A DNA stretch of 33,608 bases, from positions 1 to 33,608 of the forward strand of contig CALPWQ020000019.1 of NCBI GenBank assembly GCA_943327315.2, written 5' to 3'. Numbering within the stretch: the stretch's first letter is position 1; each line of letters begins with the position of its first letter. Below, one piece after another: positions 9,848-33,608 of this stretch. The position numbers and the translations under genes were made by a program. The notes under the pieces are model-generated. The model had not been told where the DNA came from and did no database searches. It saw only the letters and a list, made by a program, of their open reading frames with translations. The stretch comes from Chitinophaga pinensis (GTDB taxonomy: Bacteria > Bacteroidota > Bacteroidia > Flavobacteriales_D > Crocinitomicaceae).

Positions 9848-12361
9848 TTATTTAAAGATGATCACCATATCTACGCGACGATTCTTTTGTCGTCCTTCTG
9901 GCGTTTCATTCGGCGCAATCGGCTGAGATTCTCCGAAGTACAATACATAGAATCTTGACTCGTCAATACCTTTCGATGCCAAATATACTTTCACTGCTTC
10001 AGCACGTTTTTTAGACAACACCAAGTTTTTCTGGTCCTCACCTACGTTATCCGTATGCCCCGTCAATTGAAGTCCCCATGTTGGTTTCTTTTTCAACACC
10101 TCCGCTAACTCATCCAACGAAGCAAATGAGGTTGCCTTGATGATGTCTTTTCCATTTTCGAACTCCAAGGCTGAGAATGCTGTTTTCAGAATTTCTTCAA
10201 CTTCTTTATCGATAACAGGACATCCTTTATTGGAAGCAGGTCCTGCCGTTGCTGGACAATCATCATCCTTATCGAGTACCCCATCCTTATCCGTATCTTG
10301 GTAAGGACATCCTTTGTTTGGTATCGGACCAGCAAGATTTGGACAATCGTCATCTTTATCCAACAACCCATCTTTATCTGTGTCAGGCCAAGGACATCCT
10401 TTGTTTTCTTTCGGACCTGCTTGCTCAGGACAGTCGTCCAAGAAATCAAACAATCCGTCTTTATCCGTATCTGGACATCCTTGATTTTCAAGTGGACCAT
10501 TAACTTCTGGACAGGCATCTTCATCGTCTTTGATGCCATCACCATCCGTATCCGGACATCCTCTAAAGCGCTTCAGCCCTGCAACATCTGGACAATCGTC
10601 CTCTGGATCGATAATGCTGTCATTGTCACGATCAGGACATCCTTTAAACTGAGCAATTCCTGCCAATTCGGGACAATCATCCTCTTTATCAATGATTTTA
10701 TCCCCGTCTGTATCGGGACAACCTTTAAATTCAGCAGGACCTGCTACTTCTGGACAATTGTCGTCCGTATCTTTAATCCCATCTCCATCTGTATCAGGAC
10801 AACCTTTAAAGGCCCAAAGACCTGGAACGATATCACACTCATCCACCTTATCCGAAACTTTATCCCCATCTTGGTCCGACGGATGTCCATAAAGCACCGG
10901 AACGCGCAATCCCAAATAGAATTCCGTTCCTCTCACTTTACCTGCGGCAAACAGCGTTCTGAAATCTGTCATACCGATTGTCAATGGTCCCAAACGCGCA
11001 GCCAAACCAGCTTTGAAACCTGAATATTGGTTGTACGACATTGGCAAATAAACCCCTATCCATGGGTGATCAAACGATGGCGTTATCGAAAACTGGTTGG
11101 CAATATGCACATGATTTCCGTTGCGTTTCGACAACACATTCAACATGCCTGTAGCATTTACATAGAACCAGCTTCCAAGGTGGTAATCAAGTTGAACGCT
11201 CAGAGCAGTAGGCGTTTTCATAAAATAGGTCGAACCAACATTTTCTCCAGCCGACCAATCAGGTGAGGCTAGAATTAAGCTATCCACAGTTCCGTTAAAA
11301 TCTGCGAGCGATGAGTCTGCGTCGAATGTATGTAAATCGAATAAATTCGCTGAGTTCACCGAGAAGTTTCGGCTATTGTCGCTTTTTTGAAACTTCATCC
11401 CCCCCATGTCAAGCAAGGAAATACCCGCGCGCAATTTATATTTGTTGGTATTTCTTCTCCAGATGTTTGTTTCACCATCCATGTCATATTTGTGTTCTTT
11501 CCATTCAGGACGCCATTCGTAAACGAAGCCCAAATCTCCACCCATACCGAAACTTGATGTAACAAAACCTGGATTTGATGATGTAGATACCCCGTTCAGA
11601 TTTGCCGAATATCCGTAACTAAAATCTCCACTTAATGAATTCGAAAAATCTTCATTTTTAAGGTCGTAGTTAAAGTTGTTCGTATGAATGTACATGGATA
11701 CAATTCCTGTTAAATATTTCAGGCGGCCACCAACTTTCATAAAATGTTCACCGTCATCTTTGATCACTTGGCCATAGTTGAAGCCATATTCACCCCAGGT
11801 CATGTGTTGCACGGAAAATAGTTCTTCATTGAATGTTGTATTCCACAACGAAGGGTAATCTAATGCGTTTTCTGCGAGAACAATAAGTTGGGGGTCGATA
11901 TTGTCGATGTTTGTAATGGAACGCAATTTTGTTGAAAATCCGATGGCAATCTTAGGATTGATGTGAAAAGCGAAATTCAATACGTCGAGCTGCATATTGT
12001 TGTATGCACCCAATGTTTTTGTCGAATTTTCCGAATAGTTTTTAATGATGAACTGATCCATGAAGGCCTGACCATCCTGTGGTGCCCAAGTGTTGTAAAC
12101 GTTTGTATTTAAGAATGACTTCGTCCACCATGCTGGCATTCCTTTCGTATCGAAAGACAAGGCGTTGGTGTAGAAATTAAAGCTCGAACTCCCAAGATTC
12201 ACATCTACGACAAATCTTCCGTCCACAAAACTTGCAGGCTGTAAATCGGTTCCCATCACCCCGGAATAATTGCTCGTAATAACCCCAAGGTAATTTTGAG
12301 CATACGAAGCTGTAGCACTAAAAACCGTTGCAGAGAATAAAACACGTTTAATTAGGTTCAT
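9848..12361 (-). CDS. DUF5723-like outer-membrane protein with thrombospondin type-3 repeats and C-terminal OmpA domain
   Basis: 837 aa; signal peptide; repeated CPDTDGDGIKDTDDNCPEVAGPAEFKG units; LQLTGHTDNVGEDQKNLVLSKKRAEAVKVYLASKGIDESRF...GRQKNRRVDMVI is an OmpA peptidoglycan-binding domain. DUF5723 assignment is less certain. Confidence 0.88.
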   Translation of the reverse strand: MNLIKRVLFSATVFSATASYAQNYLGVITSNYSGVMGTDLQPASFVDGRFVVDVNLGSSSFNFYTNALSFDTKGMPAWWTKSFLNTNVYNTWAPQDGQAFMDQFIIKNYSENSTKTLGAYNNMQLDVLNFAFHINPKIAIGFSTKLRSITNIDNIDPQLIVLAENALDYPSLWNTTFNEELFSVQHMTWGEYGFNYGQVIKDDGEHFMKVGGRLKYLTGIVSMYIHTNNFNYDLKNEDFSNSLSGDFSYGYSANLNGVSTSSNPGFVTSSFGMGGDLGFVYEWRPEWKEHKYDMDGETNIWRRNTNKYKLRAGISLLDMGGMKFQKSDNSRNFSVNSANLFDLHTFDADSSLADFNGTVDSLILASPDWSAGENVGSTYFMKTPTALSVQLDYHLGSWFYVNATGMLNVLSKRNGNHVHIANQFSITPSFDHPWIGVYLPMSYNQYSGFKAGLAARLGPLTIGMTDFRTLFAAGKVRGTEFYLGLRVPVLYGHPSDQDGDKVSDKVDECDIVPGLWAFKGCPDTDGDGIKDTDDNCPEVAGPAEFKGCPDTDGDKIIDKEDDCPELAGIAQFKGCPDRDNDSIIDPEDDCPDVAGLKRFRGCPDTDGDGIKDDEDACPEVNGPLENQGCPDTDKDGLFDFLDDCPEQAGPKENKGCPWPDTDKDGLLDKDDDCPNLAGPIPNKGCPYQDTDKDGVLDKDDDCPATAGPASNKGCPVIDKEVEEILKTAFSALEFENGKDIIKATSFASLDELAEVLKKKPTWGLQLTGHTDNVGEDQKNLVLSKKRAEAVKVYLASKGIDESRFYVLYFGESQPIAPNETPEGRQKNRRVDMVIIFK
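10205..10885 (-). repeat. DNA encoding about 8 tandem Asp-rich thrombospondin type-3 repeats
   Basis: Repeating unit of about 23 codons (GCPDTDGDGIxDxxDxCPxxAGPxxxK) from SDQDGDKVSDKVDECDIV to DDDCPATAGPASNKGCP. Confidence 0.9.
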
Positions 12362-32103: not shown

Positions 32104-32715
32104 TTATGCCTTTATGGTTTGGTAAATGGGCAGATACTCTTCAATGAATTCAGCCGTTCTTCGCTCTGTAAATGTTGTTGAAAAATACAGGTGCTGGCAT
32201 TTTGGAAGACTTTCAAACAAGCGAATCAATTGCATTTTGTGGCCTGTGCGGAACAGTTCCACCATATCATCGAGAATGAGCAGTTTCAATTTTCCGACAT
32301 TAAACCCATTTTGGATGTACAACTCATACAGGCGCTTAGGATTCGCCACGATGATTTCTGTCCCATCAAAAATATCATTGCGTTGTTGGAGGATATTTCC
32401 TCTGTCATGGGCAAGGTCTACAGTTAAATCCAACCATCGGGTATATTTTGACAGCTCTGCATGCAAGTCATACGCCTTTTGGTCGCTTGCACAAACAATG
32501 ATTGCACGGGGAGATCCCTCTGCAGGCTCGTTCACTTTTTCAAGAATAGAAACAAGTGCAGCCGTAGTTTTTCCACTTCCTTCTGGAGCTTCCGCCAGGG
32601 TATTTTTTCCCGATCGAATCCCATTAATCACTGAATTTTGAAATTCATTGAGTGCAGTAAAATTCTTTTCTGCTAGTAATTCTGCCAGTTCAGGACGTAA
32701 ATTTTCGAATGCCAT
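32104..32715 (-). CDS. Single-domain DEAD/DEAH-box-helicase-like protein (RecA1 domain only)
   Basis: 203 aa; FQNSVINGIRSGKNTLAEAPEGSGKTTAAL (Q/Walker A region), IIVANPKRLYEL (motif Ib-like), LLILDDMVELF (degenerate Walker B/DEAD), LYFSTTF (SAT-like); ORF ends without a RecA2 domain. Confidence 0.78.
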   Translation of the reverse strand: MAFENLRPELAELLAEKNFTALNEFQNSVINGIRSGKNTLAEAPEGSGKTTAALVSILEKVNEPAEGSPRAIIVCASDQKAYDLHAELSKYTRWLDLTVDLAHDRGNILQQRNDIFDGTEIIVANPKRLYELYIQNGFNVGKLKLLILDDMVELFRTGHKMQLIRLFESLPKCQHLYFSTTFTERRTAEFIEEYLPIYQTIKA

Positions 32716-33041
32716 TATTTCAGTTTATCATTTTCTTTATGCCGCGAATGGTCGCGATTTGTTTTCTTTTCAAGGTTCTTTTCCAAGGCTTTTTCGAGGT
32801 CCACACCTGTTTGATTTGCCATGCACATCAAAACAAATAGTACATCCGCCATTTCGTCGCCAAGGTCCTTATTTTTATCCGATTCCTTCTCACTTTGCTC
32901 GCCGTATCTTCTCGACATGATGCGTGCCACCTCACCCACTTCTTCCACGAGAATCGCCATGTTGGTCATTTCATCGAAATACCTCACACCATACTCTTGA
33001 ATCCATTGGTCAATTTTCGCTTGTGCTTCTTGTATTGTCAT
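32715..33041 (-). CDS. MazG-like nucleotide pyrophosphohydrolase
   Basis: 108 aa; TNMAILVEEVGEVARIMSRRYGEQSEKESDKNKDLGDEMADVLFVLMCMANQTGVDLEKALEKNLEKK; EExxE and ExxD motifs. Stop overlaps next start (TAATG). Confidence 0.92.
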   Translation of the reverse strand: MTIQEAQAKIDQWIQEYGVRYFDEMTNMAILVEEVGEVARIMSRRYGEQSEKESDKNKDLGDEMADVLFVLMCMANQTGVDLEKALEKNLEKKTNRDHSRHKENDKLK

Positions 33042-33130
33042 TCCTTGTTCAATTTGTTGCTGCGCTATTTGTTATAAAGACAAAAGACACTTCTTCGCTC
33101 TTTGAGCTCCGAAGGACAATGGACTTCAAA

Positions 33131-33161
33131 GTTACTAGTTACCAATGACGAGTTACGAGTT
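33131..33161 (-). repeat. Inverted AACTCGT-like heptamer array (left arm)
   Basis: Reverse complement AACTCGTAACTCGTCATTGGTAACTAGTAAC; its first 18 nt are identical to 33367-33384 on the plus strand. Confidence 0.85.
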
Positions 33162-33206
33162 GAGGAATTTTAGCTTCGGGCTAGACTTCAAACAAACTTC
33201 GTCATT

Positions 33207-33505
33207 CGTGGCTTCGAGACTGCTGTCGCACCTCACGTGTCCGCTGCGGCGGAGCCACCTAATTCGTAATTTGTAATTCGTAACTCGTAATTAGTAATTC
33301 TTTATTCCCAAGCGTGGCTTCGAGACTGCTGTCGCACCTCACGTGTCAGCTGCGGTGGAGCCACCTAACTCGTAACTCGTCATTCGTAATTCTTTATTCC
33401 CAAGCGTGGCTTCGAGACTGCTGTCGCACCTCAGCCACCTAACTCGTAATTCTTAATTCTTAATTCCCAAGCGTGGCTTCGAGACTGCTGTCGCACCTCA
33501 GCCAC
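33207..33505 (+). repeat. Four-copy hairpin repeat unit in two size classes
   Basis: 29-bp core CGTGGCTTCGAGACTGCTGTCGCACCTCA identical at 33207, 33313, 33405 and 33472. GTGGCT...AGCCAC hairpins at 33208-33258 and 33314-33364 (51 bp), and 33406-33438 and 33473-33505 (33 bp). Confidence 0.95.
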
Positions 33506-33560
33506 CTAACTCGTCATTCGTAACTCATAACTCTGCATTCTTCATTTTTAATTTTTAATT
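33261..33560 (+). repeat. Degenerate AATTCGT-type heptamer arrays between and after the hairpin units
   Basis: aattcgt aatttgt aattcgt aactcgt aattagt aattctt (33261-33302); similar arrays at 33367-33404, 33440-33471 and 33508-33560. Confidence 0.9.
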
Positions 33561-33608
33561 CATTGGTCACTCCCTGCTCTTCGAATCTATAATTATAGTG
33601 ACCGGTCC

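Follow-up and report, generated by a model that had tools for sequence, protein, structure and literature searches.

The window that we analysed, the whole stretch of 33,608 nucleotides, is the entire contig C19 of a draft genome (G000; 3.04 Mb in 178 contigs). It ends 103 bp past the last hairpin of a repeat cluster that lies between two genes of the minus strand. One is a mazG-like gene, of which an orthologue is present in 24 of the 26 genomes of the genus. The other, truncated by the contig end, we take to be dtd, a name based on its conserved C-terminus and on the sequence of its relatives. The repeat region is non-coding, as the initial annotation had stated for the sequence 5' of mazG, and it occupies the 525-bp gap from the dtd stop codon (33567-33569, minus strand) to the mazG start (33041). 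The features, in order of position, are as follows.

32715 to 33041, minus strand: mazG-like gene, 108 aa, downstream of the cluster (Pfam MazG, E=3.9e-14)
33130 to 33192, minus strand: left dispersed module, reverse heptamers (TTACGAG) and then AGCTTCGGGCT, outside the hairpin unit (copies at 97-98%)
33208 to 33258, plus strand: hairpin unit 1, long form, with stem GTGGCT/AGCCAC, arm A TGC-TGTC-GCA and an extra arm B
33259 to 33306, plus strand: forward heptamer array (AATTCGT / AACTCGT)
33314 to 33364, plus strand: hairpin unit 2, long form
33366 to 33398, plus strand: heptamer array between units 2 and 3
33406 to 33438, plus strand: hairpin unit 3, short form, 33 nt
33440 to 33466, plus strand: heptamer array between units 3 and 4
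33473 to 33505, plus strand: hairpin unit 4, short form, 33 nt
33507 to 33552, plus strand: heptamer array after unit 4, decaying toward the dtd end
33567 to 33608, minus strand: 3' end of dtd (GPVTIIIDSKSRE*), truncated by the contig end (conserved C-terminus and the sequence of relatives)

A pattern search of the window found the 29-bp core in four exact copies, at 33207, 33313, 33405 and 33472, against a mean of 0.00 in shuffled sequence, and nothing similar was present elsewhere in the window. The core-to-core spacing is 106, 92 and 67 bp; units 1 and 2 have the 51-nt long form with the extra arm and units 3 and 4 the 33-nt short form. With up to three mismatches allowed, the heptamer AAYTCGTAAYTCGTAAYTC matched 14 times in the window, compared to 0.06 expected, and all of the matches fell within 33131-33560. 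The mismatch-free cores and their spacing, the GTGGCT/AGCCAC stem and the phased AAYTCGT heptamers that the initial annotation had described were all confirmed. The left module (33130-33192) forms the inverted repeat I2 with the heptamers to the right, and its copies (97-98%) lie at C56:17851 and C8:32028. At 10253-10438 of the window, a coding region also contains an 87-bp tandem repeat, which on the minus strand gives DTDKDGLLDKDDDCP-like repeats that resemble, by eye, those of thrombospondin type 3.

The hairpin is a dispersed element and not a local one. In its own genome, the core had 46 matches within three mismatches, on many contigs and on both strands, and our searches and the stretches retrieved with them put the number of hairpins at 67-71 copies (67 by a stem-to-stem pattern). 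The same pattern gave 22 copies in G004, 16 in G010, 24 in G015 and 28 in G024, whereas G002 had three and 20 other congeners had none, all of these being draft genomes; a reversed pattern, applied to the same genomes as a control, had no match. An over-loose pattern of the unit, whose matches were mostly due to chance, was left out of the counts. The core was absent from 34 genomes of other genera. In a collection of 85,462 species it was found only in four MAGs (Kiruna3_bin-5384, Jr-28aug17-78, 49632_E31 and MoE-23oct19-142), and these match the sister species G024, G004, G015 and G010. The five carriers (G000, G004, G010, G015 and G024) are freshwater bacteria and form one clade of one genus. 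With about 70 copies in the own genome and more in four independent sister MAGs, a repeat that exists only at this site and only in this assembly is excluded. The dispersed family makes a non-autonomous mobile repeat, one of the roles listed in the initial annotation, probable. The likeness to Bacteroidetes intergenic repeats that was noted there holds for the kind of element, but the hairpin family itself is mainly confined to a single clade.

In a set of 295 genomes from the order, outer stems that enclose a different sequence were found only in G002, G210, G227 and G141. In G210, which belongs to another genus of the family, locus L310 contains GTGACTGAGGCGTGCAAAGCACGGGACTCGAAGGCACC repeats with the same outer plan and a different arm. 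Carriage of the hairpin by phages or plasmids was considered and rejected, as the core occurred in none of 2.9 million viral contigs and a plasmid search returned no meaningful match. The hairpin may also have some likeness to the GGTGGTTGAGG...CTCGAAACCACC repeats of Actinobacteria; for this likeness the plasmid matches were weak and partial only (E=0.5) and there were none in viral contigs.

In nearly all regions, the hairpins are arranged as direct tandems or singletons. By a crude ORF call, 10 of 80 units of the own genome fall inside an ORF of 70 aa or more. Among the hairpin regions of G000 (L190-L247), 36 of 44 have the 3' side of the unit nearer than its 5' side to a gene boundary (p about 1e-5), whatever the orientation of the gene. 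Judged with the same crude ORF call, the hairpins showed no significant bias to the stop sides of genes once the mix of region types was taken into account; the facing gene ends were stops in about 30 of 46 regions, barely above the prediction from this mix. Seventeen of the 178 contigs have a hairpin at most 300 bp from an end, so the repeats probably limited the assembly.

The heptamers have expanded in exactly the five genomes that carry the hairpin. Exact 21-mers of AAYTCGTAAYTCGTAAYTCGT numbered 139, 143, 75, 80 and 57 in the five carriers, compared to 0-7 in other congeners and 0-10 in other genera. The hairpin has a fixed orientation in the arrays. Forward heptamers stood on both flanks of 61 of the 80 units in the own genome, and reverse heptamers were found upstream of five and downstream of three. 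The common junction, marked here by a slash, is AAYTC/GTGGC ... GCCACC/AAAYTC or GCCACC/TAAYTC. Thirteen of the 80 units were without heptamers, several of these being in another context (TTGTCCCTT...GAAGTG), and about five of 12 sampled heptamer arrays were without a hairpin. The intergenic regions L193, L196, L204, L229 and L246 and their counterparts in G024 form a mosaic that contains CTTCGCTCTTTGAGCTTCGAAG palindromes, arrays of TTTGATGCCTTCGGCAATT, GTCTTTTGTCC and AAGATGTT, and CCCCCTCAACGAGGGGGAG.

The dtd-mazG junction in relatives shows sites with and without the element. The element is absent from G011, G012 and G014, where the ends of dtd and mazG share one base (TAATG), and in G016, G025 and G017 the gap between the two genes is short and repeat-free. 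Hairpins and heptamers are found at the dtd-mazG junction in G000, G015 and G010, while in G024 they lie upstream of mazG and a different gene follows. In G000, a repeat cluster of about 500 bp stands between these genes, whose ends overlap in some of the relatives. In species that are ~89% alike, an array had the hairpin in one and lacked it in the other (L190/L124, L247/L261, L239/L289 and L238/L122). Alignment of intergenic regions at orthologous arrays revealed a fast turnover and many other repeat modules. Presence and absence of the hairpin at the arrays could be due to its loss by deletion between heptamers.

The initial annotation had proposed folding the element and had suggested selection on the hairpin. 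Folded as single-stranded DNA, the short form clearly beats shuffled sequences (z about -2.3; 5 of 200 shuffles were equally good), whereas the long forms are no better than shuffles (z 0 to -1.2). We then compared the stems of 52 distinct short-form units with 1000 shuffles, leaving kinship among the units in. In this kinship-uncorrected set, 94.9% of the cells were paired, compared to 92.0% in the shuffles, and 11 cells had double changes, compared to 2.0; neither value was reached in any of the 1000 shuffles. Double changes were distributed over four pairs, a number reached in 4 of 1000. Most of the double-change cells come from a single class change, TGC/GCA to TTCC/GGAA, with three cases in the outer stem separate from it, and the variants of the outer stem include GTGACT/AGTCAC, TTGGCT/AGCCAA and GTGGGT/ACCCAC. 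Two positions of the loop are free to vary. The compensated changes in the stem support selection on the hairpin. The Rfam covariance models had no match to it up to E=1.

A single Y1_Tnp gene, encoding 144 aa, was found in the own genome. Its protein passes the IS200 model of NCBIfam (76.6 bits, cut-off 55), falls below the REP-associated model REP_Tyr_transpos (31.9 bits, cut-off 80) and matches structure chains of IS608-type TnpA (E=5.8e-8). With the motifs DHVH, WQ and YIYCQKKHH, its length and its low copy number, it is predicted to be a TnpA-Y1 transposase of subclass 1.2. We rejected a class 2 RAYT, because Y---NP is absent, YIYCQKKHH being present instead, and because the protein does not pass the REP_Tyr_transpos model. 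A RAYT-like Y1 transposase, which the initial annotation had suggested looking for, therefore exists as a Y1 gene with an adjacent copy of the repeat, but it is IS200-like, of subclass 1.2, and not a classical RAYT (Y---NP).

The hairpin lies directly 3' of the Y1 gene in G000 and G024, on the 3' side only, and heptamers follow the gene on this side in all four Y1-bearing carriers. The neighbourhood of the gene is conserved and syntenic in the four species, and no tnpB was seen beside it. Orthologues (85-94%) were found in G024, G015 and G010 only, and in none of 21 non-carriers. Because the five carriers are one clade, the counts of this co-occurrence are not independent. In the tree of Y1 proteins, the protein of the clade groups with other genera and not with congeners, at deep supports that are moderate to low. 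No Y1 gene was found in G004, which has 22 hairpins. One of these (L168) is identical to the Y1-adjacent hairpin of G000; it is in an unrelated locus with no Y1 remnant beside it, and it adjoins an array of (TTAGTGG)n.

Elsewhere in the order, too, Y1 homologues commonly have repeats beside them. Three or more repeated 12-mers were present in the 400-bp flanks of 28 of 29 homologues, and control stretches had them in 9 of 89 and in 6 of 36 cases. Counting repeated 12-mers over all flanks is a better test than looking for 11-mers common to both flanks, of which there were none for the Y1 genes of G000 and G024, where that test is a poor one. By eye, the repeats are mostly palindromes and differ between gene types. 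The GTCCCNNNGGGACTRYA palindrome was found only in G005, G021, G023 and G007, the congeners with that type of Y1, and at several loci in some of them. TGACTTCWSWGAAGTCA was found only adjoining its Y1 gene and is thus not dispersed. The motif pattern missed 9 of 36 homologues, some because of cut matches, so not all of the homologues are proven members of subclass 1.2.

We suggest, with a confidence a little above even, that the cluster represents a REP-like non-autonomous hairpin that is served by the subclass 1.2 Y1 transposase and for which the heptamer arrays are landing sites. It consists of four tandem copies of a hairpin of 33 or 51 nt in AAYTCGT arrays, and the hairpin most likely spreads as single-stranded DNA by means of the single-copy Y1 of the clade. 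By analogy with TnpA-REP and its REPs, the Y1 may recognise the hairpin and carry out both cutting and joining next to it, and the cut single strand may be joined to a short target, as in TnpA-REP and IS200/IS605 systems (PMC8266576). A cleavage site for Y1 at the hairpin was not identified in this analysis. If the hairpin usually lands in the heptamer arrays, it would enter in one orientation and in phase (AAYTCGT/GGC...GCCACC/AAYTCGT), as insertion confined to one strand, with its target inside the heptamer, would be expected to fix the orientation. In this model the heptamers would be targets and not by-products. Their presence on both flanks would also permit precise loss of the hairpin and tandem growth by slippage, and the local copy number probably shifts by slippage or recombination between them. 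There is a wider version of this model, rather doubtful to us, in which the subclass 1.2 enzymes throughout Bacteroidetes are each devoted to processing the hairpin repeats of their own clade; here the cut would fall inside the heptamer, and successive rounds of cutting and joining would both insert hairpins and lengthen the arrays.

It is also conceivable, if rather unlikely, that no transposase took part. The arrays would then have arisen by replication slippage and recombination, the hairpins would have been copied from array to array by gene conversion and tandem duplication, and the Y1 gene would be a bystander that collected repeats on its 3' side. The direct tandem of identical cores in the window would be expected from such processes, and so would the hairpins of G004, where Y1 was not detected, the common hairpin-free heptamer arrays and the several other degenerate arrays in the same genomes. 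However, they would hardly bring the hairpin to about 70 sites with a fixed orientation and phase, or to non-heptamer contexts, and they do not explain why, throughout the order, unrelated repeats flank the homologues of Y1, with one palindrome that tracks the gene type.

A role at the RNA level seems improbable to us. A hairpin behind a stop codon might stabilise or end the upstream mRNA, as has been proposed for the REPs of E. coli, and selection rather than mobility would then explain the number of copies. The cluster comes after the stop codon of dtd, but the hairpin is not followed by the T-run that an intrinsic terminator would have, and the stops at about 30 of 46 facing gene ends hardly exceed the prediction from the region mix. 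The compensated stem changes, the mostly extragenic positions and the 3' side of the unit as the one closer to a gene boundary (36 of 44 regions) are in favour of such a role, but the hairpin is often absent at orthologous sites and its long forms fold no better than shuffles. The four copies and their spacing might even be an error of assembly at a repeat-limited contig end, because only 103 bp separate the last unit from the contig end, and in 17 of the 178 contigs a hairpin lies at most 300 bp from an end. This is very improbable in view of the independent MAGs G015 and G010, which have hairpins and heptamers at dtd-mazG, of G024, which has them upstream of mazG, and of the copies with unique flanks throughout the contigs.

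A hairpin that is moved by the Y1 of the clade, the explanation that we prefer, has a close parallel in the REP/RAYT systems (GTAG repeats with TnpA-REP, REPINs and BIMEs), with which it shares a 33-nt imperfect palindrome with an internal bulge, intergenic dispersal, and a single-copy Y1 transposase gene with an adjacent copy of the repeat (PMC2817692, PMC8266576). The short form fits the 20-40 nt of REPs with conserved pairing, whereas the long form has 51 nt, and the 67-71 copies, most of them extragenic, are below the usual number of more than 100. The unpaired GTAG (or CGTC) foot of REPs is absent; instead, AAYTC precedes the unit and GTGG is paired in the stem. The units do not form inverted doublets or alternate in order like those of BIMEs, they sit in heptamer arrays, and the Y1 motif is Y---Q--HH where RAYTs have Y---NP. 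Membership of the GTAG REPs is ruled out by the missing tag and the missing doublets. From the REP/BIME-like element of the initial annotation we thus retain a REP-like dispersed hairpin, in direct tandems or singletons, and drop the inverted doublets.

The own enzyme resembles TnpA-Y1 subclass 1.2 in DH[IV]H, WQ and Y---Q--HH, in low copy number, in its occurrence in Bacteroidetes and in size (~148 aa, compared to 144 here). Neither REPs nor properties of insertion sequences were reported for that subclass (Quentin et al. 2018, PMC6006769), but our gene has repeated hairpins in its company, and repeats also flank the majority of its homologues in the order. With IS200/IS605 elements such as IS608 and ISDra2 it shares the enzyme family, a hairpin as the (here candidate) substrate and a fixed orientation of insertion. 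It differs from them in being single-copy and syntenic, not mobile as a unit and without hairpins at both ends. The locus and its relatives thus offer a candidate substrate for a subclass 1.2 Y1 transposase, with natural sites of presence and absence, and the enzyme of 144 residues is amenable to in vitro testing. The arrays resemble the intergenic TAACTGA heptamer arrays of Beggiatoaceae, Cyanobacteria and Bacteroidetes (PMC4679880) in their direct 7-mers and patchy distribution, but the heptamer here is AAYTCGT, degenerate and interrupted by the hairpin element. Dispersed hairpin repeats and intergenic heptamer arrays are usually described apart, and in these genomes they are joined.
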